Of a stretch of DNA of 64,000 nucleotides, positions 22,104 to 37,226 are shown piece after piece (the stretch's first letter is position 1; each line of letters opens with the position of its first letter). The DNA is taken from assembly GCF_900104245.1 (NCBI RefSeq), contig NZ_FMXN01000002.1, positions 124,001-188,000 of the forward strand. The letters are read 5' to 3'. The DNA comes from Pseudidiomarina indica (GTDB lineage: Bacteria; Pseudomonadota; Gammaproteobacteria; Enterobacterales; Alteromonadaceae). Under the pieces are notes generated by a model that saw nothing but the letters and a program-made list of their open reading frames with translations, had not been told where the DNA came from and searched no databases. Position numbers and translations under genes: made by a program.

Positions 22104-24232
22104 TAGAGTTGTCCTTTTAAACTTTGTGCTACTTTTACTGACACTCGTGAGACCTCAAAGATCTCATCGGCTAGAATGGGGGTTGGTTTACCTTGTTGAA
22201 TTGCTTGAATGAAAGCCGCTGCGCATGCATTTTGCCCTTTGTCTTGGCTTAAAAGTTTTTTTCCTTTAAAGCCAGGCCATCCGTAACTGCGCAGCGCTTT
22301 AAAGTTATCAAGTTGAAGAACCGCATCGTTGGAGAAAACCTCAATGCGCTCTTTCGGGAATGATTTCCCACCATTTGCCAGATACATAATTGTACCAAAC
22401 GATCCATCGGCAAACGTAAGAGTGATACTTGCTTTATCTTCGCTCACCTCTACACCAGGAACATCACCCATTTTGGTCGCATTAAAGTCAGTAATCTCAC
22501 TACCCGCCAAAAATCGCATTAAATCGATATAGTGACAAGCTTCACCCAAAATACGTCCGCCACCAACATTTGGGTCTTGTGTCCAATGTTCAGCTGGAAT
22601 TGCTCCAGCATTCATCGTCATAATAAAGCTTTTAGGTTGCTGGGTAGAAGACAGCAGCTTTTTCATTAGCTGAACCAAGGGGGCAAACCGACGGTTAAAA
22701 CCAATCATGAGATGTTGCTTGCCAGCGGTCTGCTCATAAGCTGCTTCTAGTTCATCCAATTCTTCCAACGTTAAAGCTAAAGGTTTTTCAACAAAAACAT
22801 GCTTACCTGCGTTCAATGCTAACAACGCCTGCTTCGCATGCAGGTTATGTTGCGTTGCAATCACTACAGTATTGCTTTCACTATCATTATAGATTTCTGT
22901 TTCGTCAGTAACGGTATACGTAAATCCAAGCTTTTTACCATGATGAACCCCGGACACCCCGCCGCTACTTGCTAATGTATGCAGTTTAGCTCCGCCAGCT
23001 TTGAATCCTGGAATAAGTACTCGTGATGCATAGTTGCCCGCGCCTAGAAAAGCACAAACAACATCACTTGGTAAATATTCCTCTTTAGCATTAAGTGTAA
23101 TTTTTCGTCTTAAATCAACTTTGCTTTCATTAGAATTTGGGTAGGATAATAGAATTCCAAGTGCAGATGGGTTAGACAGAGTTTGATAGGCTTCTATAGC
23201 CTCTTCGAGCATATATCGATGGGTGATTAAAGGTTTTACGTTCAAAGCTCCGGTAGACATCATATCTAGCACAGCTTCAAAGTTACGCTGCTCAGTCCAA
23301 CGTACAAATCCCACAGGGTAATCGTGCCCCTTATTTTCATACTCAGGATCATAGCGCCCCGGTCCATATGAACAGGATACCTGGAAGCTCAGTTCTTTTT
23401 CATAGAAATCAGCACGCGATAATTCAAGCCCAACGACTCCCACTAATACAATACGCCCTCGTTTACGGCACATTTGTGCGGCTTGATGTACTGGTTCATT
23501 ACTTTTTGTAGCAGCTGTAATGATTACAGCATCAACTCCTCTTCCTCGAGAAAAAGATGCTGCGATCTCGATGGGATTTTCCCCTTTAGAAAGATCAACT
23601 GTTTCAGCTCCGAAATTACATGCTAATTCACATCGACGAGAATCGAAATCTATTCCCAATACTCGACAACCATGCGCCCGTAAAAGCTGAACCGTCAAGA
23701 GCCCGATCAGCCCCAACCCAGTAACAACAACACATTCGCCTAACGTAGGTTGAGCCAAGCGAACACCCTGCAACCCTATTGACGCCAATACCGTAAAAGC
23801 AGCTGATTCGTCGTCAACATTATCGGGGATTTTTGCACAAAGATTTTGTGGTACACGTACTACCTCAGCATGATGACCATTAGAAACCACTCGGTCTCCT
23901 ATCTCATATCCGGGTACCCTGCTGTCTAATACAATCCCGGCATTACAATATCCAAGAGGAAGGGGCTGATCTAATTTGGACCGAACAGCTTCAAGTGTCG
24001 GCATAATCCCATCAGTGCGAACTTTGTTAAGAACCATTTTAACTTTATCGGGCTGTTGCCTCGCTTTTTCAATAAAGTTAGCTTTGCCAAAATCCACGAG
24101 CATACGTTCAGTACCGGCGCTAACTAAAGTTTGACTACTGGCTATTAGCAGATGCCCTACTTTATTATGAGGACATGGAACATCAGCAAGAATGGTTTCA
24201 CCATTACCTAAGTTTTGAAGAATCTGTTTCAT
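22103..24232 (-). CDS. Two-domain oxidoreductase: zinc-ADH-like plus Gfo/Idh/MocA domain
   Basis: The 709-residue protein is a natural fusion. Residues about 1-360 resemble medium-chain alcohol/sorbitol dehydrogenases ('GYCNAGIVLDSRVPGYEIGDRVV', NAD loop 'VTGLGLIGLLTVQLLRAHG'). Residues about 385-709 are a Gfo/Idh/MocA domain ('CAFLGAGNYASRVLIPGFKAGGA', 'HVFVEKPLALTLEELDEL', 'GFNRRFAPLV'). The same bi-domain protein recurs beside heparinase-like genes and CapK homologues in capsule loci of marine bacteria, from general knowledge. It probably oxidises and reduces a sugar intermediate in two steps, but the substrate is unknown. Its spacing to wecC is nil, so it belongs to the operon. Confidence 0.88.
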   Translation of the reverse strand: MKQILQNLGNGETILADVPCPHNKVGHLLIASSQTLVSAGTERMLVDFGKANFIEKARQQPDKVKMVLNKVRTDGIMPTLEAVRSKLDQPLPLGYCNAGIVLDSRVPGYEIGDRVVSNGHHAEVVRVPQNLCAKIPDNVDDESAAFTVLASIGLQGVRLAQPTLGECVVVTGLGLIGLLTVQLLRAHGCRVLGIDFDSRRCELACNFGAETVDLSKGENPIEIAASFSRGRGVDAVIITAATKSNEPVHQAAQMCRKRGRIVLVGVVGLELSRADFYEKELSFQVSCSYGPGRYDPEYENKGHDYPVGFVRWTEQRNFEAVLDMMSTGALNVKPLITHRYMLEEAIEAYQTLSNPSALGILLSYPNSNESKVDLRRKITLNAKEEYLPSDVVCAFLGAGNYASRVLIPGFKAGGAKLHTLASSGGVSGVHHGKKLGFTYTVTDETEIYNDSESNTVVIATQHNLHAKQALLALNAGKHVFVEKPLALTLEELDELEAAYEQTAGKQHLMIGFNRRFAPLVQLMKKLLSSTQQPKSFIMTMNAGAIPAEHWTQDPNVGGGRILGEACHYIDLMRFLAGSEITDFNATKMGDVPGVEVSEDKASITLTFADGSFGTIMYLANGGKSFPKERIEVFSNDAVLQLDNFKALRSYGWPGFKGKKLLSQDKGQNACAAAFIQAIQQGKPTPILADEIFEVSRVSVKVAQSLKGQL

Positions 24233-24272
24233 TTAAATCTCATATAATATGACGTCGACAAAAAAAGCCTGA

Positions 24273-25604
24273 TTACACGTTCTTGACCAATAAAGGGACC
24301 TTACCTACTTTGGTACGAATCGGTTCGGCAATAACTCTAAATTCAAAATCCAGCTGTACATTAGATGTATCAAAGTACTCAGATGCATCCTCCGGAGTTA
24401 ATTCGTCTCTTGGCGTAACAAGAACAACCACTGCTCCTATACGAGGCTGATATATTTGTATATGTCGAGCTATATCAAATAAGCGATGGTGACGGCCAAA
24501 AACCAGTCCTGTAAGAAATATTTTATTCCCTAATTTATCAAGTACGTACTCACCTTCACGACCATCACTTATTGTAAAACTCTCAAGTAAACCGTGATTT
24601 AAGTTCCCTTCTATCCGATCACCCGTATCATATCTTATCAATGGTGAGGCTCTATTGTAGTAGCTCGTACATATCAAACGACCATCGTCTATCATCTCTG
24701 CAAAGCCATAAGTCACAAACGGAGAATAAATACCAGGAGCACTTTCCTCGTACGCTAATATCGAGCGTTCGGTATGCCCATACCAAGAAATACTTTTACA
24801 GTCTAATATTTTTTCTGTTGTTGAACGTAAATGTGGCGAAGGTAACTCTGATCCAAGAAACATACCTTTTATATGATTACGCATGATTGGTAAGAGCGGA
24901 TGATTGTTGTTATCTAGCCATATCATAAAATCAAAAATAGAACTAGGATAGCCATGTAAGTATTTAGGTGAATATTTATCGAATATTTGAAGAAGTTTAT
25001 CTGCTACGCTTTGCCAACCACTGTATATGTCCACATTGAACTGGTGCCTCGCAGAGTCATACTGGACAACATTTTCTACATCAGCTCTACCGCCAAAAAC
25101 CACCTTTAAATCTGACTGCTTAAATCCAAGCTTTTTCCAGATATAGTGCATATGCGCCCACTCATGCCCAACACTATTGGGCTCGATGTAAAGCTCTAAC
25201 GGATGCCCACTGCTACCCCCGGTATTTTCTAACAAACGACCTTTTATTCCAAATGATCGGAATTCCAGCGGAACACTTTGTAAATCTGCTTTTGTTATAA
25301 TCGGCAAGCTATCCAGTTCATCAAAAGTTTTAAGACTCTCAGGGTTAATACCGTTATTTTGATAAAGCTCTTTGTAGAATGGAATATTATTAAAGGCATA
25401 AACTGCTATAGCTTTAACACGATTAAAAACAAACTCTTTCTTCTGCTCCACTGTAAAATGCTCAGATTCTAGTATCGAACGCTTTCGCGTACGATAAATC
25501 CTGCCAATCCCTGGCCTATAATCATAAGGGATCATTGAGACTGACCTACCAACGAAAGAGGGTAATCGAGTAAAATATTTTTTTGAAAATCGGATGAATC
25601 CCAT
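24273..25604 (-). CDS. CapK/PaaK-like adenylate-forming protein
   Basis: The 443-residue protein resembles phenylacetate-CoA ligase relatives of the CapK group found in capsule loci. It has 'VKAIAVYAFNNIPFYKELYQNNGINPESLKTFDELDSLPIITKADLQ' near residue 70, the nucleotide-binding 'LLENTGGSSGHPLELY' near residue 130, and 'LIRYDTGDRIEG' in the second half, matching the 'YxTGD' motif. True PaaK enzymes make CoA thioesters; the role of CapK homologues is unproven but may be acyl or amino-acid decoration of the polysaccharide. It lies 40 bases upstream of the bi-domain oxidoreductase gene. Base composition is AT-richer than in the core genes. Confidence 0.83.
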   Translation of the reverse strand: MGFIRFSKKYFTRLPSFVGRSVSMIPYDYRPGIGRIYRTRKRSILESEHFTVEQKKEFVFNRVKAIAVYAFNNIPFYKELYQNNGINPESLKTFDELDSLPIITKADLQSVPLEFRSFGIKGRLLENTGGSSGHPLELYIEPNSVGHEWAHMHYIWKKLGFKQSDLKVVFGGRADVENVVQYDSARHQFNVDIYSGWQSVADKLLQIFDKYSPKYLHGYPSSIFDFMIWLDNNNHPLLPIMRNHIKGMFLGSELPSPHLRSTTEKILDCKSISWYGHTERSILAYEESAPGIYSPFVTYGFAEMIDDGRLICTSYYNRASPLIRYDTGDRIEGNLNHGLLESFTISDGREGEYVLDKLGNKIFLTGLVFGRHHRLFDIARHIQIYQPRIGAVVVLVTPRDELTPEDASEYFDTSNVQLDFEFRVIAEPIRTKVGKVPLLVKNV

Positions 25605-25740
25605 ACTTTAACCAATTAATTTAAAGATTATTAAGCGAGACGGATTTATGAAATATCAAGCCACCAAATGATAAGAGCTATTTAGTATAGCTGCCAAATT
25701 AATAGCCATGATATATCGACCGCGACATTAAATATCATAA

Positions 25741-26865
25741 CTATAGATTATGGAGCTCGGCGACCCTATTAAAAAGAAGTGCTATTTTTTCATATCGCTC
25801 TTCCTGATTCCCATAACCAGAAAGAATTATAGACTTTATTCTATTCTTATAACTTTCCACCTCATCATTTTCAGAGGAGACAATTGCATTCATAAGAGAG
25901 ATCTCGGATAAGGAGTCATAATATATCGCATAATCTTGACAAATATCTTTTGCAAAGCTTTCTTTTGGAATAAATATTGGCAAGCCTAGCGCGATAGCCT
26001 CAATATAAACAGTAGAAAATGTTTCAAGGAGACTTGGCAGCACGATAGCATCTGCTTTTTTATATATATCTATGGCTTTAGAGTAGTTATATGGACCTAT
26101 ATTTAAAATCATATTGTCAGAGTTATCGTATCTCTGAGTTAATTCACTAAAGGACTGGTTATCAATTGTAAGTAAAAATTTTACGTTTAATTCACCTCGC
26201 TCTTTCAAAAGCCTAGCAGTCCTAAATAATATTTCTATATTCTTGTGTGAATAATATGCAGATGCACATAAAATAACTTTTGGTCTATCAACCCCAGACC
26301 AAGGCGTATACGACGTTATATTATCAACAAAGTCTGCACCAATCGCATTTGGGATTACAGCTGTTTTATTAATTGGGCATAGAAACCTTTTACAAAACCC
26401 TTTCCTCGAAGTTGGAGTTTGAAAAACATAAAAGTCACCTGACAGTCTTGCTATCCATCCCTTAAACATTGCCGAGCAAATGCTTTTAATTCCTTTTAAT
26501 ATACTTCTATCCCAAAAATAGTTTATTTTTTTTGCGTGGGTAATATAAGGGTTACTTGTTCCCAACATGTGAAATGATTTAAAGCAGAGTAAATTGGGGC
26601 CAGCCATAGTATAAACCAATTGAGGTTTAAACTCTCTCTCTAACCACCGAACTTTGCGCTGTGTATCTAAAACCCTCTTTCGATCATCAAATACGATAAT
26701 GCTTTTATGATTAACCCCCCAGGACTCTAATACTGAATTAACCGGACGCGATACCAAAAATAGATATTCATGCCTTTTATCTTTTAAAGCATAATATATA
26801 AAGTTGGCTGAGTTTTGAACACCGCCTCCTGCAACATTGCTTATACAATTAAAAATTATTTTCAT
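25741..26865 (-). CDS. Glycosyltransferase, GT4-like
   Basis: The 374-residue GT-B type protein has a Rossmann start ('MKIIFNCISNVAGGGVQNSANFIYYAL'), a middle 'VILCASAYYSHKNIEILFRTARLLKERGE' and a donor-binding segment 'ADAIVLPSLLETFSTVYIEAIALGLPIFIP', the E-x7-E motif of GT4 enzymes. It probably adds a sugar to the lipid-linked repeat. The gene is AT-rich, with 136 bases to the downstream CapK-like gene and 124 to the upstream acetyltransferase gene. Sugar specificity is not predictable. Confidence 0.87.
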   Translation of the reverse strand: MKIIFNCISNVAGGGVQNSANFIYYALKDKRHEYLFLVSRPVNSVLESWGVNHKSIIVFDDRKRVLDTQRKVRWLEREFKPQLVYTMAGPNLLCFKSFHMLGTSNPYITHAKKINYFWDRSILKGIKSICSAMFKGWIARLSGDFYVFQTPTSRKGFCKRFLCPINKTAVIPNAIGADFVDNITSYTPWSGVDRPKVILCASAYYSHKNIEILFRTARLLKERGELNVKFLLTIDNQSFSELTQRYDNSDNMILNIGPYNYSKAIDIYKKADAIVLPSLLETFSTVYIEAIALGLPIFIPKESFAKDICQDYAIYYDSLSEISLMNAIVSSENDEVESYKNRIKSIILSGYGNQEERYEKIALLFNRVAELHNL

Positions 26866-26989
26866 ATGGTTAATACCAGAGTGCTATTAAAATTTGTTAC
26901 GCTCGAAGTCCAGGAGATGAGCTAAACTTCAAAAGAAAACAAAAAAATTTAAATACCTTTTGTTCATTTCAATTATTATCAAGTAAAAA

Positions 26990-27472
26990 TTAACTATCGT
27001 TTTTTCTAGGGTGGAATTTTGCAGGTACGCCAACAGCTATACTATTTTTGGGTACATCTCGTGTTACAACAGCATTTGCACCTATAATACAATTTTTACC
27101 TATTTCAATGCTGCCCAAGATAACAGCTCCAGAATATATAATGGTATTTTCACCAATAATTGGGTACGCATTAATACTTGCGCTTGAACGGCCAAGTGTA
27201 ACATTCTGATAGATCGTCACATTCCTACCAAGCTCAACACCACTACCTATAATTATAGAAGTAGGATGTACTAAATTTAATGAAGCATCGAACTTTGATT
27301 CATAAGGCAAAAAAACACCATATTTTCTTTGCAAGCGCCTAGATAAAATAGTTCCCAGTATTTTCAACTTCCGCTCTTTCATAAGCACCATAAGCTTAAT
27401 ATAAAAGTAGACTCTTCGATCTGCCGTTGAAAAAATGAAATTGTATATAGACCTCAAAATATTAAATCCCAC
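26990..27472 (-). CDS. Hexapeptide-repeat (LbH) O-acetyltransferase, CysE-like
   Basis: The product of about 160 residues has left-handed beta-helix hexapeptides: 'IIIGSGVELGRNVTIYQNVTLGR', 'IIGENTIIYSGAVILGSIEIGKNCIIGANAVVTRDVPKNSIAVGVPAK'. The ending is typical of serine acetyltransferase-related capsule acetylases. The start is placed at GTG 27472 because GAGGGTGA precedes it; an ATG at 27496 overlapping the flippase gene end is the alternative. It probably O- or N-acetylates a sugar in the capsule repeat. The flippase gene is directly upstream. Confidence 0.85.
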   Translation of the reverse strand: MGFNILRSIYNFIFSTADRRVYFYIKLMVLMKERKLKILGTILSRRLQRKYGVFLPYESKFDASLNLVHPTSIIIGSGVELGRNVTIYQNVTLGRSSASINAYPIIGENTIIYSGAVILGSIEIGKNCIIGANAVVTRDVPKNSIAVGVPAKFHPRKNDS

Positions 27473-27476
27473 CAGT

Positions 27477-28775
27477 TCACCCTCTTGAGCGAGCATTTTT
27501 TATCATTAAGACAACAAGAACAGATGCAAAACAGTAGAAAACTGAAAGATATATACTTATAACACCTACAAATTTTTCATCTGTTAGTTGAATATAGCCA
27601 GCAAGCTTAAAAATCATTATTAGACCAATGAGTCTCACTATGTTAAGAATAAGATATACATACTGCTTTCCTAGAACATTAATAGCCTCCATAAGAGGGC
27701 TCGATGTAAACTGAAACAGCACAAATGGAGCAAGTATAGAGGCAAACTTCCCTGCCATTGCCCACTCCGCACCAAATAAAAAACCAAACAAACTTTCGGA
27801 TATAAAGTAAACTATAGCTGCACTAGGAATTCCCACATAGAAAAGCTTCTTTTGCACAGAAAGTGTAATTGCATAGATTATGTCTATGTTATTTTTACCT
27901 AAGGAAGCTATTTCAGCATAATAGGCTTTAGACATCGCGGAGCCCATTATACTTATTGGTAAAGACAGTGCTAACATTGCTAAACTAAACTGCCCAGTAG
28001 ATTCCGTTCCAAATAGAATAACCATCATCATAACTGGAGCTTGAATTGAAAATACCATTAACACATGGGATGGCAGCCTAAACCATACAAATCCTTGGTA
28101 GTATTTCGCGATAAGTAACTTTTTTTTCCAAGATAATTTTTTAGCTGAAATATTAAGATTGTTTTGACTAGTTTTTGTTAAACTAAGAACCCCTGCTACT
28201 TGGCTTGCAAAGTGACCAATAAGCATCCCCAAGGGTTTAATTGAAAATAACCCCAGAATTATTTGAGATGAGTTTAACACTAATGATTGAACAAACTGAG
28301 CCCGAGCTAATTTCTTATAAAATTTATATCGAGTAGCCCATAATGTAGATAGTTCATATAGCGCAACACCGGATGCTCCTAAAACAATCAACCAACGCCA
28401 ATCAACTAACTGCTCCATATTCAACCAAACTAAGATAGGCTCCCCAAATAAATACAAAACTATCGAAAAAATTATTGAGGCCAGAAAAATCAACTTAAGA
28501 CATAACGCACGCAAGCCTAACGCCAATAAACCATTATTAGGAAGTGGCAAAGCTAAAACATAACGCAATGTCATGAATGGTGCTAGAACAGTAACAATTG
28601 ATGTATAAAGAGCTAAAACACCATAATCTTCCGGAGAGTATATACGTGTAAGTATCGGAATACTCATCAGGCCAATTATTCGTGCAATGCCTGCACCAAC
28701 TAGCAGGATAAGCATTCCTTTCAAAACACCAATAGACTTATCAGCTAAGATTCTTTGCTTTATCTTGGAAAACAT
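27477..28775 (-). CDS. wzx: Polysaccharide flippase, Wzx/MATE-like
   Basis: The 432-residue protein is almost entirely hydrophobic, with about twelve helices. It begins near the membrane with 'GVLKGMLILLVGAGIARIIGLMSIPILTRIYSPEDYGVLALYTSI', the classic Wzx N-terminus (IPILTRxxSPExYG). It moves the lipid-linked repeat unit across the inner membrane. The start is placed at ATG 28775 (GGAAGAG upstream) because the longer reading translates a T-rich tract. A hairpin plus that T-tract lies immediately upstream and could act as an intra-operon attenuator. Confidence 0.9.
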   Translation of the reverse strand: MFSKIKQRILADKSIGVLKGMLILLVGAGIARIIGLMSIPILTRIYSPEDYGVLALYTSIVTVLAPFMTLRYVLALPLPNNGLLALGLRALCLKLIFLASIIFSIVLYLFGEPILVWLNMEQLVDWRWLIVLGASGVALYELSTLWATRYKFYKKLARAQFVQSLVLNSSQIILGLFSIKPLGMLIGHFASQVAGVLSLTKTSQNNLNISAKKLSWKKKLLIAKYYQGFVWFRLPSHVLMVFSIQAPVMMMVILFGTESTGQFSLAMLALSLPISIMGSAMSKAYYAEIASLGKNNIDIIYAITLSVQKKLFYVGIPSAAIVYFISESLFGFLFGAEWAMAGKFASILAPFVLFQFTSSPLMEAINVLGKQYVYLILNIVRLIGLIMIFKLAGYIQLTDEKFVGVISIYLSVFYCFASVLVVLMIKNARSRG

Positions 28776-28790
28776 CACTCTTCCAGAGTC

Positions 28791-28824
28791 AAAAAAATAA
28801 AAAAACACCTCTATTCATAAGAGG
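28791..28824 (-). terminator. Weak intrinsic terminator or attenuator upstream of wzx
   Basis: On the minus strand a 5-bp stem (CCTCT paired with AGAGG, seven-base loop) is followed by TG, seven Ts, an A and seven more Ts. The stem is short, so termination would be partial. It lies inside the presumed polysaccharide transcription unit, between wzy and wzx. Confidence 0.4.
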
Positions 28825-29279
28825 ATAATCACACTAATTGCGCTTAATAGAAATGAATCATCAAAAAGAAAAGTAAAAAAATAGATATCTGTTGCATTTC
28901 TATAAATTCAATAACTATAAATCCAATATCAACTGAGCAATTATTTAACCATCTAATAACGGGTTATAAAACATAGTAGATTTTTAAGACTATTCTCACA
29001 GAGACCGAGCATACGGGGTGAACATACTCTAGCGTACAATGCAAAAGAACTTTCATAGCTGGCTCGTCTTTAGAAACCATTTTTATTAATCAGCCCTAGG
29101 TAGATTAATCAAACTTTAAAGTGTTGCTCACCCCAGAATAGACTGATAAAAACATTGGACAATAAAGAACATAGAAAGATTTTTATTTCATGACCTCTTA
29201 CATCTCAACAACCTTCACAAATCATATGAATTACCACTGTATTGTCATAAAAAATCACCTTATCAAACAGAGTTATGTA
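28825..29279. other. AT-rich spacer inside the capsule locus, no gene seen
   Basis: About 455 very AT-rich bases separate the flippase and polymerase genes. A 38-codon minus-strand ORF is present but has no recognisable features. I see no RNA gene and no insertion-sequence end. It may be the remains of a lost gene. Confidence 0.4.
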
Positions 29280-30335
29280 CTAGCCTCTATAAAAGCCATT
29301 TCCATAAAGGTAGATATTATTAACAAACCCCACTGACTTAACTGCTAAGTAAAATAAAACCAGAATAAAAGGCCAAGAGTAAACTCGGGTCATTACCAAC
29401 TTCTTCTCGGCCAGCAAAACAAATAAGGTCGCAGAAAAAAATATCATATTTACTCGTTCCCCTCCGAGCAGACCAATTACAACAAAGAAGAATAATATAA
29501 AAACCAAAGTTTTAAAGCCAACTTTTGCACCTCTTGCGATTATGAATGAAACGGCGAGAACAAAGAATTGAATAAATTCAGAGGGATTAAATCCATCATA
29601 TCGAAAATACCCAGTGCCTTTATTAATAAGCCCCTCCATCAGACCTGGAACAAATAAAATTACAAAGCAAATTAAAAGGATTGAGAAAACCCCAATGACT
29701 ATATTTCTATCAAGCTTCCAAGAGGCCAGAACATCTTTAATAGAACGCAAATATGTCTCAGCATTAAAAAACATAAACAACCCAGCTAGTAGTATTATCA
29801 TTTGAAAGTGAGCTAGAATAGAAATAAGCGACATTAACAATCGAAACTTCCTGCCACCAAAGGTTGCCAACAAAGCAAATATAAATGCTATCTTTAATCT
29901 TTCTGTACCTGTAAACAATACAATCAAATAAAAATTAAAAATCAGGAGTAGGACAATTAACCAACTTGCGCCAAGGCACCTCATTGATATCACTAATAAA
30001 GATAGAAGAATTAAATTCAAGACTGTTATATATAGGTTCTTATCAATCCCCAAATAGCTTCCCAACCAGAGGACCACTGGAGAAACTATTTCATAGCTAG
30101 AAACAGTACTTTGCGCAACTGAAAACAGCTCCCTAGCATTTGAGACACTTGCAAATCGTTCATATAACAAATTATATGCCACTTGATCCCCACCAGTATA
30201 ATGAGAAATCAGTGAATACAACGGATATAAAGATAATAGCAATATCAAAACCACTGATAATGCTTCAAATGATTTTAAACCTGATTCTTTATAATTCATA
30301 TTAAATAAACTTATTACCTTTAAATCCAAGAGCAA
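29280..30335 (-). CDS. wzy: Probable polysaccharide polymerase, EpsG/Wzy-like
   Basis: The 351-residue protein has about ten hydrophobic segments, with a larger loop containing 'HYTGGDQVAYNLLYERFASVSN' after the first helix. This matches the EpsG-type Wzy layout ('GxDxxxYxxxY' style loop). A second conserved-looking stretch, 'FTGTERLKIAFIFALLATFGGRKFRLLMSLISILAHFQMIILLAGL', resembles the 'R.....al...a.......aHfs' signature of the family. It would polymerise repeat units in the periplasm. It is the promoter-proximal gene of the operon, about 255 bases downstream of the ops element. Wzy proteins diverge strongly, so this is by topology and position. Confidence 0.75.
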   Translation of the reverse strand: MLLDLKVISLFNMNYKESGLKSFEALSVVLILLLSLYPLYSLISHYTGGDQVAYNLLYERFASVSNARELFSVAQSTVSSYEIVSPVVLWLGSYLGIDKNLYITVLNLILLSLLVISMRCLGASWLIVLLLIFNFYLIVLFTGTERLKIAFIFALLATFGGRKFRLLMSLISILAHFQMIILLAGLFMFFNAETYLRSIKDVLASWKLDRNIVIGVFSILLICFVILFVPGLMEGLINKGTGYFRYDGFNPSEFIQFFVLAVSFIIARGAKVGFKTLVFILFFFVVIGLLGGERVNMIFFSATLFVLLAEKKLVMTRVYSWPFILVLFYLAVKSVGFVNNIYLYGNGFYRG

Positions 30336-30980
30336 TTAAAAGTCTAGCGCTGAAACCCTGCACACACCATTTCAAATAAGCCAAACCACGCGGCTTAAAC
30401 TCAACTCTAAATCAATTGAATATATCAATAATGTTTTTAATATTTTAATAAATAGTGAGATGTCGATTAGTGTCAATGAAGAATAACAAATTCGCCATAT
30501 TTTTATAATAGGCTGACATACATTTTTTTGCATAATGAGTTATATTGCTAACTCACCTTGCTCACTAATCAATATTAGAGAAAACAAAACACGCTACCGC
30601 CCCTAGGTTGCGGCTCCCACGTACCGATCATCTGTCGTTTGTTATGTATCAGGTGGGGGAATATGAAATGGTGTTGTTGAATAGATTGTTATTTTTTATA
30701 TAGTTAGCACAAAACCTGCGATATTTTTTAATAATTCAGTACAGATTTTGAGCTAATTTGGGCTGTTTGATGAAATGTTAAGCAACGCCGCATGCCCCCA
30801 CACGACGCGCTATTAAAGCATATTAGCAAAAAGCCTACAACGTACATTTAACAATTTTTACACTGCACAAATGCTATATAACAAAGGTCACAGCGGTGGT
30901 GGTAGTAGCTGGAACTGTATAGCAAAGCGCTAGCGGGTCTGCAATACTAGTCCCGCTAAAAAACACCAAGGAAATGCGTT
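30336..30980. other. Divergent promoter region between capsule operon and peptidase gene
   Basis: A 645-base AT-rich spacer. On the minus strand it holds the ops/JUMPstart element at 30590-30603 and, further upstream, the presumed capsule promoter. On the plus strand it holds the promoter and AAGGA ribosome-binding site of the peptidase gene. No ORF or RNA gene is convincing. The roughly 250-base leader between ops and wzy is unassigned. Confidence 0.5.
30590..30603 (-). promoter_or_regulatory. ops element (JUMPstart core), RfaH recruitment site
   Basis: Read on the minus strand this is GGGGCGGTAGCGTG, matching the enterobacterial ops consensus GGCGGTAGCGTG, and like the JUMPstart element it has a CTAGGGGCGG lead-in. 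It lies about 255 bases upstream of the first capsule gene and in the same orientation. The paused polymerase at ops recruits the NusG paralogue RfaH, which suppresses termination through long surface-polysaccharide operons. An RfaH gene would be elsewhere in the genome. Confidence 0.88.
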
Positions 30981-33257
30981 ATGAACCATCGTTATTCTGT
31001 GGCAGCCCTACTCGCTCTAATGACCATAACAAGCCATGCGAGTGTGGAACCTGCTCAAATTGAACGCTCGCTTTCGTTGCGAGACCAGTGGATGCCTCTT
31101 ACTCGTGATCTTATGCAATCCCCAACCTGGGCGGCCAGCGGTGATCAGTTTCATTATAAGTTGAGTGTGGAAGGCGGCTTTATGTTCTTCCGTGACAGCG
31201 TGCAACAAGCCAAACCCACGCCGGCTTTTGATCATCAGCACATTGCCACCGCTTTGGCACAAGCCAGCGGCACTACCATTGATGCCATGCACTTGCCCTT
31301 TGATCAGTTTCGTTACACCAATAACGATCAAAGCATTCGCTTCTATTATGCGAACCAATCGTGGCAGTGCCAGTTAACTGAAGTGCACTGTGAAGTGCTC
31401 ACTTGGCCGAACCGCCCTCGCGGGTTCAGTGTGGTACGTGATTTGCGAGTTGAGGCGCATAACCCATTGCGTCCGTCGCCCGATGGCCGCTATCAGGCCC
31501 ATACCGTTGGGTATAACGTCAGCATTCAAACCAGCAATGGTGACACAGTTTTCGCCACCACCGATGGCACCGCCGATAACTTTTATGATCCGGAATCCAT
31601 CCGTTGGGCGCCCGACAGTTCTGCGTTGGTGGTGATGAAAGTCACGCCAGGCACGGCGCGTTATGTTGACCGCGTGCTCAGTGCTCCAACCGATCAACTT
31701 CACCCGCAAACCATCACACAAATTTACCCCAAACCCGGTGATGCGGTGGATATTGACCAGCCCGTATTGATTCACATTGAACGCGGCACAGCACAGGTGG
31801 TTAATAACGAGTTGTTTAGTCAGCCGTACCAAATTGATCGGGTGCAGTGGCAGCCCGACAGCAGTAGCTTTAGTTTCCGCTACGTCGAGCGGGGCCATCA
31901 GCGCGTTCGGTTAATTGATGTAAACGCTGCAACGGCTACGCCGCGAACGGTGGTGGACGAGCACAGTGATACCTTTGTGGATATGTGGGGCGGTTTCTAC
32001 CAAACCTTACAGCAGGGTGACAAAGGTGCCATTTGGTTGTCTGAACGAGACGGCTGGGCACATTTATACCATTACAATGGCAAGGGTGAGTTGGTGAACC
32101 AAGTTACTCGTGGCGACTGGCGCGTCCGCTCGGTGGTGCATGTGGATGAACAACGTCAACAAATCTGGTTTGCGGCCAGCGGCATGTACGAGGGTCAAGA
32201 TCCCTACTACGTTCATTACTTTCGGGTGAACTTTGATGGCTCCGAGTTAACCCCGCTCACCGAAGGTAACGCCCACCATGAGGCGGTGTTTTCTGCCGAC
32301 ATGAACCATTACATTGTGATTCGTTCCCGGGTGGATTTACCGCCAGTGGCCGAGTTACGCCGCAGCGCCGATGCTTCGTTGGTGCGCGTATTAGCCAATG
32401 CCGACATTAGTCGCTTAACGGCTGCCGGCTTCAAGCCACCTAAGCCCTTTGTGGCCAAGGGGCGCGACGGGCAAACGGATATCTGGGGGCTAATTGTGAC
32501 TCCGCAAAACTTCGACCCGAAGCAGCGCTACCCGGTCATCGAAAATATCTATGCGGGGCCACACGACAGTTTTGTGCCGAAAAGCTTCTGGCCGTTTGGC
32601 TTTCATTCAGGTGGCGACAAAGTGATTGGCATGCAAGCCTTGGCCGATTTGGGTTTTATTGTGGTGCAAATTGATGGCATGGGCACCAACAACCGCTCCA
32701 AAGCTTTTCATGATGTGGCGTGGCAAAATCTGGCGGATTCGGGCTTTCCTGATCGCATTTTATGGCACCAAGCGGCGGCCAAACAGTTCCCTTGGTACCA
32801 TATTGCTGATGGCGTGGGCATTTACGGTGCTTCGGCCGGCGGGCATAGCACGGTTGCCGCGTTAGAATTCCATCCTGAGTTTTACCGCGTGGGCGTGGCT
32901 TATGCGGGCAACTACGATAACCGCATGGACAAAATCAGCTGGAACGAGCAATGGATGGGCTACCCTATCGGCGAGCACTATGTGGCCTCTTCAGTGGTGG
33001 AGCACGCCCACAAGCTTACTGGTGCCCTGCTGATTATTAATGGCGAGCAAGACAGCAACGTAGACCCGGCTTCCACCATACAATTGGTCGATGCCTTAAT
33101 TAAGGCGGAAAAGGACTTCGATTTGCTGGTCGTGCACGGTGGCGACCACGCCGTTGGCCGCTCCACCGGCCCCATTCGCTACATTCAGCGCCGCCAGTTC
33201 GACTTTTTCCTGCGCCATTTAGGGCAAAAGGAAACCCCGCGCTGGAATCAGCTGTAG
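30981..33257 (+). CDS. Secreted dipeptidyl-peptidase IV-like serine peptidase (family S9)
   Basis: The 758-residue protein has a signal peptide (MNHRYSVAALLALMTITSHAS), an N-terminal beta-propeller (DPPIV_N) with WAPDS/WQPDS-type blade repeats, and a C-terminal alpha/beta hydrolase. The nucleophile is in 'GVGIYGASAGGHS' near residue 618, the acid in 'GEQDSNVDP' near 690 and the histidine in 'GGDHAVGR' near 722. The nucleophile elbow is GASAGG rather than the usual GWSYGG of DPP-IV. Exact dipeptide preference is therefore uncertain. It likely helps periplasmic degradation of peptides, in keeping with a protein-feeding marine bacterium. It is monocistronic. Confidence 0.9.
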   Translation: MNHRYSVAALLALMTITSHASVEPAQIERSLSLRDQWMPLTRDLMQSPTWAASGDQFHYKLSVEGGFMFFRDSVQQAKPTPAFDHQHIATALAQASGTTIDAMHLPFDQFRYTNNDQSIRFYYANQSWQCQLTEVHCEVLTWPNRPRGFSVVRDLRVEAHNPLRPSPDGRYQAHTVGYNVSIQTSNGDTVFATTDGTADNFYDPESIRWAPDSSALVVMKVTPGTARYVDRVLSAPTDQLHPQTITQIYPKPGDAVDIDQPVLIHIERGTAQVVNNELFSQPYQIDRVQWQPDSSSFSFRYVERGHQRVRLIDVNAATATPRTVVDEHSDTFVDMWGGFYQTLQQGDKGAIWLSERDGWAHLYHYNGKGELVNQVTRGDWRVRSVVHVDEQRQQIWFAASGMYEGQDPYYVHYFRVNFDGSELTPLTEGNAHHEAVFSADMNHYIVIRSRVDLPPVAELRRSADASLVRVLANADISRLTAAGFKPPKPFVAKGRDGQTDIWGLIVTPQNFDPKQRYPVIENIYAGPHDSFVPKSFWPFGFHSGGDKVIGMQALADLGFIVVQIDGMGTNNRSKAFHDVAWQNLADSGFPDRILWHQAAAKQFPWYHIADGVGIYGASAGGHSTVAALEFHPEFYRVGVAYAGNYDNRMDKISWNEQWMGYPIGEHYVASSVVEHAHKLTGALLIINGEQDSNVDPASTIQLVDALIKAEKDFDLLVVHGGDHAVGRSTGPIRYIQRRQFDFFLRHLGQKETPRWNQL

Positions 33258-33326
33258 TAACTCTTATCGTTTTGATAAGTTTTAGGTATCGTCACTGATT
33301 GGTGTACGTATGTTAAGGATAAACAG

Positions 33327-33629
33327 ATGGATATCAAAAAGTTAGCGGCACTAATCAGTGACAAACGTGCCTATGGTAAAAGCTATGGCAATTTAGCCAT
33401 TGCGGTAGAAAGTGACCGTGGTCGAATCTTAAATTCGGCGGCGGTACGACGTTTGCAGCAAAAAACGCAAGTGTTCCCGTTAGAACGCAATGCAGCGGTG
33501 CGTAGCCGACTCACTCATTCGCTAGAAGTGCAACAAAACGGTCGTTTTATTGTGCAGGAAATAGAGAGGTCAAATTCGGAAGCTGATAAGGATCTGTTTC
33601 GAGCCATTGAAAGCATCGTCGAAATTTGA
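33327..33629 (+). pseudogene. dgt: Truncated dGTP triphosphohydrolase (N-terminal fragment)
   Basis: Only 100 residues are present where intact Dgt has about 500. The preserved part is clearly Dgt: '[43 protein letters not shown]', ending at '[10 protein letters not shown]' just before the HD metal motif (CLMHDIGNPPFGH in E. coli). The fragment keeps a good ribosome-binding site (AAGGA), so it may still be expressed, but without the HD residues it cannot be an enzyme. The sequence after its stop has no Dgt similarity that I can see, so the 3' part was deleted or replaced, possibly when the adjacent accessory genes arrived. Confidence 0.85.
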
Positions 33630-33694
33630 TTGCAAAGCGAATATAAAACTCCCGGTGCGATTCACCCATTGAATGGGCTATTGGCAATTTTTGA

Positions 33695-33711
33695 AATTAT
33701 GACTATTGTTA
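33695..33711 (+). promoter_or_regulatory. Promoter element shared by the two Sel1-repeat genes, copy 1
   Basis: The sequence AATTATGACTATTGTTA is identical at 16 of 17 positions to 34694-34710. A plausible sigma70 promoter uses TTGGCA (33681-33686), a 17-base spacer and TATTGT (33704-33709), giving a start about 32 bases before the gene. The repeated placement ahead of both paralogues argues that it is functional or was duplicated with them. Confidence 0.5.
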
Positions 33712-33747
33712 GCATTCATAGAGTCATCATGATGGAACCAATGGACG

Positions 33748-34215
33748 ATGAAACAATTAGTTTGGGGATTATTGCTATTTTGGGTGGTCGGTGCGGCTGT
33801 TAATTTGGCATTTGCGCAAACAAAAATAGAGCGCTACACCACCGGTTGTGAGGCCATGCAGCGTGATCTTTGCTGGCTGGCCGCCGATGCATACCAGCGC
33901 AAAGGTGACATGCAAAAGGCCATTACGTTTTATCGCAAGGCCTGCGCGTTGGATGAAGGCACGTCCTGCCATCAACTCGGCATGCTGTATACCAGTGGCA
34001 AGCACCTTAGCCCATCTCTGACTACCGCGAGTGAGTTTTTTACCAAGGCTTGCGCCCAAAATATCGCAGACAGCTGCTATAACCTTGGGGTGCTATTCCA
34101 GCATGGGTACGGCGTTCAAGCCAATGCGCAACAAGCGCGCGACTTTTTTAGCAAAGCCTGTGACTTGCAGCACGAGAAAGCCTGTGAACGAGCGGCGCAA
34201 GTCACCAAGAAATAA
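33748..34215 (+). CDS. Small secreted Sel1-repeat protein, cysteine-rich
   Basis: The 155-residue protein has a signal peptide (MKQLVWGLLLFWVVGAAVNLAFA) and about three to four Sel1-like TPR-type repeats. Each carries a paired cysteine seven residues apart (CALDEGTSC, CAQNIADSC, CDLQHEKAC) and 'Y.LG.L...G' helices. This is the Helicobacter cysteine-rich protein (Hcp) pattern, in which each pair forms a disulfide across the helical hairpin. Periplasmic or secreted location is likely. The role is unknown; relatives bind peptidoglycan fragments or act as adaptors. It is a shorter paralogue of the gene at 34745 and shares its upstream element. Confidence 0.85.
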   Translation: MKQLVWGLLLFWVVGAAVNLAFAQTKIERYTTGCEAMQRDLCWLAADAYQRKGDMQKAITFYRKACALDEGTSCHQLGMLYTSGKHLSPSLTTASEFFTKACAQNIADSCYNLGVLFQHGYGVQANAQQARDFFSKACDLQHEKACERAAQVTKK

Positions 34216-34309
34216 CGGCGGGCACTATTTGACAACTACCTGGTAAGGTCCTAGATTGGTAACACTACGCATTAAATTGCGGGTTAATGTCACTGAAATG
34301 GGACTTTAT

Positions 34310-34633
34310 ATGAAAGGAATGACAGCATCAGCTTTAGCAGAAGAGATCGGTGCGCGGCTGAAACAAGCTCGATTAAATCAAGACCTCACTCAATCTGAAG
34401 TTGCTGAGCTTGCCGGTGTTTCTCGCAAAACCGTCTTGAATGCAGAAAAAGGCAAAGTTCAGCTCGAATTCATGATTGCCATACTGATGGCGTTAGATCT
34501 CACCGATCAAATGGATCTCTTTCTTCCCAAGCAAGCGATCTCCCCGTTACAACTCGCAAAATTGCAGGGAAAGAAACGCCAAAGAGCCTCAGGCCGACGC
34601 AGTGATAAAGATGAGGAGCCCTTAGAATGGTAA
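34310..34633 (+). CDS. HipB-like XRE-family regulator, probably orphaned
   Basis: The protein of about 108 residues has an N-terminal Cro/C1 helix-turn-helix: 'GARLKQARLNQDLTQSEVAELAGVSRKTVLNAEKGK', followed by 'LEFMIAILMALDLTDQMDLFLP', as in HipB/HigA-type antitoxins whose genes precede hipA. The start is placed at ATG 34310 (GGGA upstream); a longer reading starts at 34256. Its end overlaps the start of a 24-codon scrap of hipA (34627), so the toxin partner has been lost and the regulator is an orphan unless it acts on other loci. Confidence 0.82.
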   Translation: MKGMTASALAEEIGARLKQARLNQDLTQSEVAELAGVSRKTVLNAEKGKVQLEFMIAILMALDLTDQMDLFLPKQAISPLQLAKLQGKKRQRASGRRSDKDEEPLEW

Positions 34634-34701
34634 TGGAAGTCATCAATATCGCGCCCGCGTACGATTTGGCGTATATGCGTGGAAATTATATACAATTCTG
34701 A
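34627..34701 (+). pseudogene. hipA remnant: start codon joined to a C-terminal motif by internal deletion
   Basis: An ATG overlapping the stop of the HipB-like gene opens a 24-codon frame beginning MVMEVINI, like HipA N-termini. It continues directly as APAYDLAYM before a TGA. 'APxYDx' is the conserved segment near the magnesium-binding loop of HipA kinases (compare 'LAPVYDFAPM' in the intact hipA at 37679). This looks like a HipA gene that lost nearly all its interior. The piece is short, so the identification is tentative. Confidence 0.55.
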
Positions 34702-34710
34702 CTATTGTTA
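34694..34710 (+). promoter_or_regulatory. Promoter element shared by the two Sel1-repeat genes, copy 2
   Basis: AATTCTGACTATTGTTA repeats the element at 33695-33711 with one change. A candidate promoter is TGGAAA (34680-34685), a 17-base spacer and TATTGT (34703-34708). It partly overlaps the end of the hipA scrap and lies 34 bases before the second Sel1-repeat gene. Confidence 0.5.
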
Positions 34711-34744
34711 AGGGACATAAGAACAATAGCGGAAAACTCTTACC

Positions 34745-35542
34745 ATGAAGCAACTACTATTAGCTGTCCTGTTATTATTCATTAGCGCTGCCGCCGCCAG
34801 TGACAGCGAGATCACGGCCGAACAGTTAAAAGAGTATGCGGCGGTGTGCGATAAGCAAAAAGACCCTGACTATTGCTGGACCGTTGCCGACCAGTACGAG
34901 AATCAGGGGAAAATGTCGAGCGCTATTGCGTATTATCGCAAAGCTTGCAACCTCGACGACGGACCTGCCTGCCACCGGCTCGGAATGCTCTATCATGAAG
35001 GAATATACGTAAAACAAGACTCCCGGCAAGCCGGCGATTTCTTTGCTTCAGGATGCGACGCAGGCCTTTATTATAGTTGCTATAACCTAGGTTACTTGTA
35101 TAAAGAAGGCATCGGACGTTCAAAGAATGATGCGAAAGCAGTCGACCTCTACTTAAAATCCTGCGAAAACGATGTTGCCTCTGCCTGTTTCAACCTTGCC
35201 TTGCTTTACGAGCGCGGGGATACCGTGGCACAGAGTGATCAGCACGCATTACAACGCTACCAACAGGCCTGCGCCCTCAACCACGCGCTTAGCTGCAACA
35301 ACGCGGGCTACATGCATCAGGCTGGCAGAGGCGCGCCCGCCAACGCCTCCAAAGCCTTCAGCTACTACCAAAAATCCTGTGAATTGAATGAGGGAATCGG
35401 CTGCTACAACGTAGGCTTGCAATATTACAACGGGACGGGTGCCCCGCAAAATACCAACCTGGCCAAGCAATACCTGCGCAAATCTTGCGACTTAGCGTAC
35501 GAAGATGGCTGCAAAAACTACGCGCTGCTCGCGGAGAACTGA
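34745..35542 (+). CDS. Secreted Sel1-repeat protein with about six cysteine-paired repeats
   Basis: The 265-residue protein has a signal peptide (MKQLLLAVLLLFISAAAAS) and about six 36-residue Sel1-like repeats. Each has a C-x7-C pair (CNLDDGPAC, CDAGLYYSC, CENDVASAC, CALNHALSC, CELNEGIGC, CDLAYEDGC) and a following 'N.G..Y..G' turn. It matches the Hcp-like pattern of disulfide-locked helical hairpins and should form an extended superhelix in the periplasm or outside the cell. The N-terminus (MKQLL) and upstream element match the shorter paralogue at 33748, suggesting duplication. No enzymatic motif is visible. A scaffold, immunity or peptidoglycan-binding role is possible, but nothing here proves one. 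Confidence 0.87.
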   Translation: MKQLLLAVLLLFISAAAASDSEITAEQLKEYAAVCDKQKDPDYCWTVADQYENQGKMSSAIAYYRKACNLDDGPACHRLGMLYHEGIYVKQDSRQAGDFFASGCDAGLYYSCYNLGYLYKEGIGRSKNDAKAVDLYLKSCENDVASACFNLALLYERGDTVAQSDQHALQRYQQACALNHALSCNNAGYMHQAGRGAPANASKAFSYYQKSCELNEGIGCYNVGLQYYNGTGAPQNTNLAKQYLRKSCDLAYEDGCKNYALLAEN

Positions 35543-35601
35543 GGGTAATGCCTAGGTGTGGTTGCCAAGGGCATTCAACGTCCCGCTTTGTCAACGCTCA
35601 C

Positions 35602-35630
35602 TTGCGAACCAAATCACTCAAGTATACAAT
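35602..35630 (+). promoter_or_regulatory. Candidate sigma70 promoter of the AbiE operon
   Basis: TTGCGA (35602-35607), a 17-base spacer and TACAAT (35625-35630) form a good promoter. The -10 box overlaps the left arm of the inverted repeat that surrounds the start region, so repressor binding there would block polymerase. Confidence 0.55.
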
Positions 35631-35667
35631 AATGACACATTTAAGGGTCAAAACTGTATACTTGAGT
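35616..35667. promoter_or_regulatory. 13-bp inverted repeat operator of the AbiE operon
   Basis: The perfect arms ACTCAAGTATACA (35616-35628) and TGTATACTTGAGT (35655-35667) are separated by 26 bases. The right arm ends four bases before the antitoxin start codon. Known AbiEi antitoxins bind inverted repeats in their own promoter to autoregulate negatively, so this is the expected operator. The arm next to the ATG leaves no room for a normal ribosome-binding site. Confidence 0.72.
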
Positions 35668-35671
35668 CGCT

Positions 35672-36211
35672 ATGAAACAAACTGAAGCCTTAGAAAAACT
35701 CACTGAATATGACAAGCGCGGACGTTGCATTTTTACCATTTCCGATATGGCTAAGATTTTTCACGCCGATAGCGAGCGCGCACTTCGTGCTGGTATCAAA
35801 CGTTTACAAGATAATGGCATACTTACTCGCATTGCTAATGGTATCTTCCTGTACAGTTTGTCTCACTCCAAAGGGAGTCATACACTCGAACAAATTGCCA
35901 AAACAATTCGGCGGGGTGAATACAATTATGTCAGTTTGGAATCTGCGTTGTCAGAATTTGGGGTTATTTCCCAAATTCCAGTAGATCGCTTGACCGTCAT
36001 GACAACGGGACGTTCCGGAGAGTTCAAGACTCCCCTAGGTACCATTGAATTTACGCACACTAAACGTGATCCTGTAGACATTATTGAAAATACTATCTGG
36101 GTTGATAGACCTCTTAGACTAGCAACCAAACAGACTGCATACCGAGATTTAAAACGTGTTGGGCGGAACACTCATTTGGTAAACAAGGAAGAGCTCTATG
36201 ACGAACTCTAA
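35672..36211 (+). CDS. abiEi: AbiEi-type antitoxin / DUF6088 family transcriptional regulator
   Basis: The 179-residue protein has an N-terminal winged-helix-like segment ('GRCIFTISDMAKIFHADSERALRAGIKRLQDNGILTRIANGIFLY') and a C-terminal part with 'YVSLESALSEFGVISQIPVDRLTVMTTGRSGEFKTPLGTIEF'. This is the layout of type IV antitoxins of the AbiEi/DUF6088 group. It overlaps the toxin gene by 14 bases. It should repress its own promoter through the 13-bp inverted repeat and neutralise the toxin's effect without a direct complex, as is known for AbiE. No Shine-Dalgarno sequence is visible before its ATG. Confidence 0.85.
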   Translation: MKQTEALEKLTEYDKRGRCIFTISDMAKIFHADSERALRAGIKRLQDNGILTRIANGIFLYSLSHSKGSHTLEQIAKTIRRGEYNYVSLESALSEFGVISQIPVDRLTVMTTGRSGEFKTPLGTIEFTHTKRDPVDIIENTIWVDRPLRLATKQTAYRDLKRVGRNTHLVNKEELYDEL

Positions 36212-37121
36212 AGAGAATTTTTCGCAATTAGTGAACAGGGCGATGCAGCAACAAGATGTATCTCATATGCGCCCGGTAATCGAGAAAGAGCTGTTGCACT
36301 ACGATATTTTGTTTGCTTTAGAAAGTAATCGTTTATTAGAGAACCTTACTTTCCAGGGCGGCACTTCGTTACGCCTATGTTATGGAGGGAACCGTTTTAG
36401 CGAGGATTTAGACTTCGTTGGTGGGCGGGACTTCAACTCGGCCATGTTAACAGACATGAAATCATGTATAGAAAAATACATTGGCAATAGATATGGTCTT
36501 GAAGTAACCGTAAAAGAGCCAAAAGATCTTAAAAAAGAAGCCAAATACGCAGACTTGAACATCGATAAATGGCAGATCGCTGTCGTTACTGCTCCTGATA
36601 GAAAAGACTTACCAAAACAAAAAATCAAAGTGGAAGTAGCAAATATTGCAGCTTATACGAGAGAGCCCCTGCCTCTACAAGTGAACTATGACTTTTTACC
36701 TGATGGCTACGGTGACATGCTAATTCTGACTGAAAGTTTGGATGAAATCATGGCTGACAAAATAATTTCTTTACCGGCCACAACCAAATACGTCCGCCAC
36801 CGAGATCTATGGGATTTAGTATGGCTTCACCAGCAAGGGGCAACCCTCAATATTGATTTGGTGAAAAATAAGGTTTCGGACTATCGCCTTCAGAACTTCG
36901 AAGTCATGATAGAACAACTGCTCCAGAAGCTCCCAGAAATGGTAGCGAGCGATGCATTCAGTGCGGAAATGAAACGATTTTTACCAACTGACGTGTTTGA
37001 CCGAACCCTCGGCCAAAACAAGTTCAAAAGTTACTTGAACACTACTCTGCTTACTCTGTTCAAGACAACTCGTGACACATTACAAGGAAGGCTCTCACCC
37101 GCCCCCGAGTTTAAAATGTAA
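36198..37121 (+). CDS. abiEii: AbiEii/AbiGii-family nucleotidyltransferase toxin
   Basis: The 307-residue protein carries the family's nucleotidyltransferase motif: 'FQGGTSLRLCYGGNRFSEDLDF' spans residues 52-73, with GG(T/S) and the metal-binding D-x-D-like pair in SEDLDF. Further on are 'KVEVANI' (third acidic strand) and 'ESLDEIMADKIISLPATTKYVRHRDLWDLVWL', which matches the conserved 'l.EilAeKl.Al..R...RD..Dl..l' helix. Toxins of this family modify nucleotides or tRNA to stop growth and cause abortive phage infection. Length is normal, all motifs look intact, and it is preceded by a matched antitoxin gene, so the system appears functional. Confidence 0.9.
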   Translation: MTNSKENFSQLVNRAMQQQDVSHMRPVIEKELLHYDILFALESNRLLENLTFQGGTSLRLCYGGNRFSEDLDFVGGRDFNSAMLTDMKSCIEKYIGNRYGLEVTVKEPKDLKKEAKYADLNIDKWQIAVVTAPDRKDLPKQKIKVEVANIAAYTREPLPLQVNYDFLPDGYGDMLILTESLDEIMADKIISLPATTKYVRHRDLWDLVWLHQQGATLNIDLVKNKVSDYRLQNFEVMIEQLLQKLPEMVASDAFSAEMKRFLPTDVFDRTLGQNKFKSYLNTTLLTLFKTTRDTLQGRLSPAPEFKM

Positions 37122-37125
37122 TATG

Positions 37126-37191: not shown

Positions 37192-37226
37192 GAACATGGC
37201 CCTATTTTGGGGTAGACGTCAGGAAA

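Follow-up and report, generated by a model that had tools for sequence, protein, structure and literature searches.

Introduction

In E. coli, one RfaH protein is recruited at the ops elements of several unlinked operons (PMC7593976). The side chains of K10, H20, R23 and R73 touch ops, recruitment suffers badly when K10, H20 or R73 is replaced by alanine, and the bases C3, G4, G5, T6 and G8 are those read or paired in the RfaH:ops structure (PMC5995543). Autoinhibition of the protein needs E48, I93 and F130, and R73 is reported to have arisen late (PMC7593976). In two further systems, UpxY of Bacteroides and the CL7 RfaH of Shewanella, the NusG paralog is encoded at a polysaccharide locus (PMC7593976).

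A 2026 preprint (PMC13015549) describes RfaH proteins of Idiomarina baltica, Pseudidiomarina atlantica and P. indica that were assayed in E. coli. Each of the three orthologs is without a few of the ops-binding residues, and, like an E48A mutant, all were active whether ops was wild-type, scrambled or G8C; they were also active without a ribosome site. Since rfaH adjoins long operons in most of that clade, recruitment in cis was proposed. The accessible part of the preprint makes no mention of a search for native ops sites. It was the only open-licence full text on Idiomarina and RfaH that we found, and no report of ops in the genus appeared among the titles and abstract openings of the open-licence literature. 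We equate its P. atlantica and P. indica proteins with the genomes used here by species name.

Here we analyze a window of 64,000 nucleotides from the P. indica genome in which an ops element precedes a polysaccharide operon. Like the leaders of the E. coli regulon (RF01707), this one has an exact core, a 5' extension and a position before a long polysaccharide operon. It differs from that regulon in that the Pseudidiomarina RfaH carries N20, N23, F73 and I130, one ops lies right behind rfaH, and the JUMPstart match falls below the gathering score. With the monomorphic beta-RfaH clade of the preprint it shares the genus group, an rfaH gene beside a long polysaccharide operon, changes at F130 and R73 and a predicted beta-type C-terminal domain; whereas the preprint proposes action in cis, we find ops conserved and a second ops operon that is unlinked. 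Unlike UpxY and CL7 RfaH, the Pseudidiomarina protein is accompanied by ops elements and an unlinked target. Our main reading, to which we give a probability of roughly 0.7, is that the window holds a working ops/JUMPstart leader and that a single RfaH serves both this biosynthesis operon, in trans, and an export operon linked to rfaH.

Results

The ops element and its leader

An almost perfect ops match had been noted on the minus strand, where the reading at 30603-30590 is GGGGCGGTAGCGTG, and its 12-base core proved exact. The leader contains four features.

30590-30601, minus strand: ops core GGCGGTAGCGTG, exact, from sequence match, shuffle control and genus alignment
30590-30626, minus strand: JUMPstart-like block, RF01707 model positions 1-38, 28.4 bits, below the gathering score
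30300-30589, minus strand: intervening leader, 290 nt from ops to the ATG of gene 1 at 30299, from the sequence
30812-30854, minus strand: promoter-like element TTGTTAA-N5-CGTTG-N17-TGnTnTAAT, a pattern shared with the rfaH-linked ops locus

The exact core occurs once in the window, where base composition predicts 0.006 copies (0.20 in the 2.2-Mb genome), and it appeared in none of 100 dinucleotide shuffles. Cores with up to two mismatches are not rare, with four found and 4.35 expected, so the ops claim rests on exactness and context. Both exact copies in the P. indica genome lie ahead of polysaccharide genes; the reversed pattern, used as a control, gave one exact match. The block lies on the non-template strand of the leader, upstream of the first gene, and points toward 14694-30299, the orientation that had been claimed. 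The claimed distance of about 255 bases holds for a start at TTG 30335, which is 254 nt away, but the likelier start is ATG 30299, at 290 nt.

Alignment to RF01707 extends from the first to the last model position. Its 28.4 bits fall short of the gathering score (35), at an E-value of 2.1e-4 for 361 bases searched; a gathering-level scan of the whole window listed no JUMPstart. Over 18 other loci (the rfaH locus of P. indica and 17 from relatives), four pass the curated score, and the P. indica rfaH locus is not among them. When five loci were searched again at E up to 1, two matched, with 23-24 bits, and the rfaH-linked ops site of P. indica gave no match at this threshold.

The promoter-like element of the window consists of a -35 hexamer TTGTAG (30840-30835), a spacer of 17 and an extended -10, TGC-TTTAAT, with its hexamer at 30817-30812. 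It was not listed by a plain consensus promoter scan. The shared pattern was derived from eight ops leaders, and at zero or one mismatch it has eight matches in 26 genomes of the genus, which are those same eight leaders, all at ops loci (two in P. indica and one each in G010, G012, G014, G015, G018 and G020). At up to three mismatches there were 21 matches versus 22 for the reversed control, all mismatch levels pooled, and thus no excess. The element is present at eight of 22 ops sites; the other 14 leaders are without it. A generic extended -10 scan of the 22 leaders averaged 6.7 of 8 versus 5.9 in shuffles, which is unconvincing for any one site, and the result for the window leader was matched by about 20% of shuffles. 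Consensus scanning of 14300-31100 found fewer promoter-like sites than in shuffles (28 versus 46.6) and no excess of terminators (13 versus 14.1). A start of operon transcription downstream of 30590 finds no support in the sequence, in which the promoter-like element sits upstream of ops.

Over 75 nt, the promoter stretch of the window is 83% identical to the rfaH locus of Idiomarina loihiensis and 61% identical to the rfaH locus of its own genome. The alignment score of the two P. indica ops leaders was reached by one of 200 shuffles. We also considered that the leader had been copied within its own genome and set this aside, the window stretch being nearer to that of I. loihiensis.

The genome-wide expectation for exact copies leaves some room for a chance 12-mer, and four further exact copies in the genus do look like chance: those in G006, G008 and G015 lie over stop-free frames of 697, 124 and 185 aa, and the 1.8 kb downstream of the copy at G041:C1 contain no ORF of 100 aa on its strand. 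The window copy is set apart by its place, its orientation, the end-to-end JUMPstart match, the shared promoter-like element and the identity with I. loihiensis over the promoter stretch. On this context, and on the shuffles, we reject chance as a highly improbable explanation. The window element is real and, as far as can be judged from sequence, very probably functional. Taken by itself it is ordinary, a textbook ops of a known kind.

The polysaccharide operon

Twelve same-strand ORFs lie between 14694 and 30335 (the first starting at ATG 30299 or TTG 30335), and 11 of them have a family match, ten by Pfam and 24273-25604 by NCBIfam only, below cut-offs. This bears out the twelve-gene, 16-kb polysaccharide operon of the original prediction. 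Counted from ops, the features are as follows.

29280-30299, minus strand: gene 1, hydrophobic, probable Wzy polymerase, labeled from sequence and place, no family match
27477-28808, minus strand: gene 2, Wzx-type flippase (Polysacc_synt_3, Pfam)
26990-27496, minus strand: gene 3, hexapeptide-repeat transferase (Pfam)
25741-26865, minus strand: gene 4, glycosyltransferase (Glycos_transf_1, Pfam)
24273-25604, minus strand: gene 5, adenylate-forming/PaaK-like, weak (no Pfam match; NCBIfam E 1.8e-13, below cut-offs)
22103-24232, minus strand: gene 6, two-domain oxidoreductase (ADH_zinc_N and GFO_IDH_MocA, Pfam)
20892-22103, minus strand: gene 7, UDP-sugar dehydrogenase (Pfam)
19762-20895, minus strand: gene 8, UDP-GlcNAc 2-epimerase (Pfam)
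18146-19765, minus strand: gene 9, heparinase II/III-type protein (Pfam)
16962-18149, minus strand: gene 10, glycosyltransferase (Glycos_transf_1, Pfam)
15823-16896, minus strand: gene 11, Glycos_transf_4 (Pfam)
14694-15746, minus strand: gene 12, NAD-dependent sugar epimerase (Pfam)
14356-14389, minus strand: terminator-like hairpin 3' of the operon, 13 pairs, 8 of them G-C (terminator scan)

We take gene 11 to be a WecA-type initiating transferase. The operon has a G+C content of 0.40 and the leader region one of 0.36, compared with 0.51 to the left, 0.47 to the right (30981-39000) and 0.515 beyond. Ahead of wzx lies an AT-rich gap of 470 bases (28809-29279) without a sizeable ORF; it could represent a decayed gene or a second start and contains a consensus promoter-like site at 29248-29221. 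Because of this site inside the operon, genes 2-12 may have a start of their own, and the single twelve-gene transcript is putative. A terminator-like stem was also seen at 28824-28808, directly ahead of wzx.

Wza, Wzb and Wzc are missing from the window operon and are found on the unlinked rfaH locus. Of the four proteins that together define a Wzx/Wzy-type capsule locus (Wzx, Wzy, Wza and Wzc), the window thus has Wzx and, probably, Wzy. Among the 26 genomes, the heparinase-like gene has homologs in two others, G004 and G019. Each of these has the heparinase homolog, together with homologs of the window glycosyltransferase, dehydrogenase and 2-epimerase genes, on the same strand and some 12-26 kb past the wzc gene of the rfaH-ops locus. 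The simplest reading of these sequences would be one locus that such relatives have in a single place and that P. indica has in two pieces, each with its own ops.

The tmRNA gene (ssrA) at 39211-39569 suggested an integration site. We tried and rejected an island at this position: the ten ORFs scanned between 33327 and 42624, which include HipA- and AbiEii-type genes, contained no integrase, and just a 14-base piece of the ssrA 3' end (CGCCAGCTCCACCA) recurs, at window position 6949. Among these ORFs are an AbiEii-type gene with a DUF6088 partner near the tmRNA gene (35672-37121) and a HipA_C protein with an HTH partner adjoining it (37227-39052). The left-flank genes (cytochrome b561, YjdM and a racemase) occur together in G010, and the 18-kb stretch that holds them there has none of the window operon genes. 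The right-flank peptidase is without a close homolog in the genus, the best being 29-31% identical, and synteny therefore gave no defined insertion point.

RfaH and a second ops site

The P. indica genome (2.2 Mb in 31 contigs) has two NusG-family genes. The one on contig 23 scores as NusG and the one on contig 14 is RfaH, passing the cut-offs of both TIGR01955 (145.6 bits; cut-off 144.5) and NF006534 (140.4; cut-off 124). The TIGR01955 cut-off is passed in just 12 of the 26 genus genomes. The genome-wide checks that had been proposed thus found both of their objects, a single RfaH homologue and, downstream of its gene, a second exact ops copy. On a contig without the main rfaH, we also saw a match to the last 26 RfaH residues only, possibly a second rfaH fragment.

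The window ops is on contig 18, at least about 220 kb from rfaH as judged by the contig ends. The second exact ops lies 187 bp downstream of rfaH and is followed on its 3' side by a small secreted-type ORF, two large ORFs and then wza, wzb and wzc. The large ORFs received no NCBIfam label; from their place and size they presumably resemble GfcC/GfcD or YjbG/YjbH. This locus holds the sole Wza-like match in the genome, and no polysaccharide genes were seen in the 5 kb after wzc, where translations were judged by eye. The two ops sites are each preceded by a similar promoter-like element. RfaH acting in trans on the window operon would be the simplest account of an ops that is unlinked to rfaH and precedes an operon without export genes of its own.

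Conservation across the genus

We searched 26 genomes of the genus; the set of named records that we also used consists largely of the same genomes, and the two sets are not independent. All 21 genomes that bear rfaH have the ops block, 19 with an exact core and two with one change (G007 and G019). The block lies 97-344 bp downstream of rfaH in 18 of the 21, about 2.5 kb behind it in G009 and about 5 kb behind it in G041. In G040 it adjoins a remnant of rfaH, some 14.5 kb upstream of the gene's intact copy. Ops and remnant are at C11:362191 and 362575-362763; the remnant has an in-frame stop, and the intact rfaH is near a wza remnant, which points to a remodelled locus.

In the named records, RfaH relatives come from 12 Pseudidiomarina and one I. 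loihiensis, together with a MAG locus and a partial fifteenth; these names fit the 'marine' label that the locus had been given. An exact ops lies 98-351 bases past the common reference end of rfaH in 13 of the 14 full-length loci, and the exception, P. gelatinasegens, matches G040 by contig and coordinates. Five genomes are without rfaH. Three of them (G001, G016 and G023) are incomplete and gave no match. In the two complete ones, the exact 12-mer of G008 and the extended-pattern match of G021 both fall inside long coding frames. An unlinked second ops occurs in one of the 26 genomes.

In an alignment of 22 genus ops sites, ten of the 12 core columns show no variation and two agree in 21 sites. 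Twenty of the 22 have the exact core. Conservation is partial in the block upstream of it (about -27 to -1), and outside about -28 to +14 no column exceeds 0.62 bits. Invariance of the core is partly built in, because sites were chosen by near-match to it. Two observations are not built in by this choice, namely that no rfaH-bearing genome is without ops and that 18 of the sites are within 350 bp of rfaH. As ops and rfaH are mostly adjacent, their joint presence or loss partly reflects linkage and shared ancestry. Judged on the alignment, conservation in the genus is evidence of selection on the site and not independent evidence of RfaH dependence.

Such selection could also act on a block that works mainly as a strong transcription pause or as a leader RNA hairpin (JUMPstart), coupling transcription to translation or to NusG, with RfaH secondary. 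The ops element is an exemplar of the consensus pause (PMC5995543), and JUMPstart has a predicted stem (RF01707; PMC2864571). Pausing alone, however, hardly requires the loop and stem bases C3, G4, G5, T6 and G8, which are unchanged in 22 of 22 sites, and it leaves the tie between ops and rfaH across the genus unexplained. We consider a mainly pausing or hairpin function quite unlikely.

Three genomes (G011, G040 and G041) are without a full-length Wza ortholog and have a weak Wza-like match inside a frame of 866-927 aa, which starts at most about 0.6 kb downstream of ops. From this large frame behind ops, it seems that export operons of a second class are also served by the element. Full-length Wza orthologs are likewise missing from G007 and G022. 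An order-level relative, G037, has 12 exact ops copies where the other 39 genomes have 0-2, and residue 10 of its RfaH is R; it is a candidate for a large RfaH regulon.

RfaH residues and predicted structure

At the positions where E. coli RfaH has H20, R23, R73 and F130, the P. indica protein has N20, N23, F73 and I130; it keeps K10, E48, I93 and R138. Of the canonical ops-reading set (K10, H20, R23 and R73), only K10 is therefore kept, and the canonical autoinhibition set (E48, I93 and F130) is broken at residue 130. The picture is similar across the genus. K10, E48 and R138 are present in 21 of 21 RfaH sequences, R23 is replaced by N and F130 by I or V in all of them, and residue 20 is N in 19, H in one and Q in one. 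Residue 73 is F, Y or L throughout and aromatic (F/Y) in 20 of the 21.

AlphaFold2, run on a shallow alignment of 13 sequences, predicted a C-terminal domain built of strands, without a helical hairpin (mean pLDDT 79; 60-80 in the C-terminal blocks), an outcome that depends on alignment depth. The first Foldseek match was a NusG model, and the first E. coli RfaH chain, 6c6s_D from the complex with RNA polymerase, ranked second (TM 0.56, rmsd 8.4). A single-sequence prediction was discarded at a pLDDT of 32.

Outside the genus, we aligned 32 loci (25 from the family and seven from the order, those with DNA, a subset of the genomes searched). R73 is present in 27 of them, and F or Y at residue 130 in 29. 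An ops with zero or one change lies within 1.5 kb of 19 of the 27 loci with R73 and of none of the five without it. In the sister genus g44, all three aligned RfaH sequences have Y/F73 and V/I130. None of the four g44 genomes (G068, G111, G142 and G169) has an exact ops within about 18-19 kb of rfaH, and two one-change matches lie on the strand opposite to rfaH; on this sequence evidence, these relatives may be truly ops-free. Loss of R73 can thus accompany a lack of nearby ops, with the present genus (g1) as the exception. Whether R73 was primitively absent from the genus or lost, both are possible on a tree rooted on a very long NusG branch. Exact ops cores near an rfaH that encodes L73 were seen at two of the five loci without R73: that of G121 (9182) lies about 9 kb downstream on the same strand and that of G112 (818) on the opposite one.

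These residue changes lend some weight to the view that the clade has a constitutive RfaH whose action is in cis, on the adjoining operon, the window ops being a relic of little effect that arrived with its operon. The assays in E. coli with altered ops or without a ribosome site, the missing ops-binding residues and the position of rfaH beside long operons in most of the clade (PMC13015549) fit this view, as do the changes at F130 and R73 in 21 of 21 genus proteins, the beta-type C-terminal domain of the 13-sequence model and g44, with such an RfaH and no exact ops nearby. A relic should decay, yet 20 of 22 sites keep an exact core between near-random flanks, and two of the species that supplied RfaH for the assays, P. 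atlantica and P. indica, have an exact ops some 107-146 bases behind their rfaH gene. Moreover, the window operon is unlinked to rfaH, so that recruitment in cis cannot serve it. We judge a constitutive protein with a relic ops to be improbable, if somewhat less so than a block that mainly pauses transcription.

Discussion

Our preferred reading remains a working ops/JUMPstart leader that a single RfaH serves in trans. RNA polymerase would start at a promoter about 210 nt upstream of ops, pause at ops and take up the cell's single RfaH, which is encoded on another contig. With RfaH on board, the polymerase, and the ribosome coupled to it, would traverse the AT-rich biosynthesis operon of 16 kb. 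Expression of the export operon next to rfaH (wza-wzb-wzc) would depend on that same RfaH and on a similar promoter and ops, and a single control would thereby cover polymer synthesis and export despite their separated genes. An RfaH without R73 and F130 would use ops either via a changed reading pocket or through recruitment favored mainly by the pause.

Against this reading stand the JUMPstart score below gathering, the changed RfaH residues, the activity of orthologs without ops in E. coli, the limitation of the unlinked site to one of 26 genomes and the g44 genomes without exact ops near rfaH. Given those residues and the ops-independent activity of the orthologs, the E. coli rule of 'no ops, no RfaH' is not simply transferable. 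Silence or polarity of the locus without RfaH, and a requirement for RfaH in any host that receives it, stay predictions of the original observation. At the same time, the preprint proposes that RfaH of this clade needs no ops (PMC13015549), and yet 21 of 21 rfaH-bearing genomes have the ops block. Conserved ops and an ops operon unlinked to rfaH mean that the proposal of ops-free recruitment in cis does not simply fit. The two could be reconciled, we infer, if ops increased recruitment at the RfaH levels of the native cell and the assay in E. coli bypassed that effect.

A more specific possibility, which we put forward tentatively and with more doubt than confidence, is that a non-autoinhibited RfaH, having lost F130 and being without the R73 side chain, still reads ops specifically via a different pocket, in trans. 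The aromatic residue at position 73 (F/Y) could, for example, stack on the flipped-out T6. If this were true, sequence-specific recruitment would be separated from fold switching, with a non-metamorphic RfaH recruited at ops in trans.

A kept ops together with an RfaH without R73 and F130, and with two unlinked operons apparently served, is an unusual variant of the RfaH/ops pairing. It makes testable the question of whether sequence-specific recruitment evolved before autoinhibition, with it or without it.
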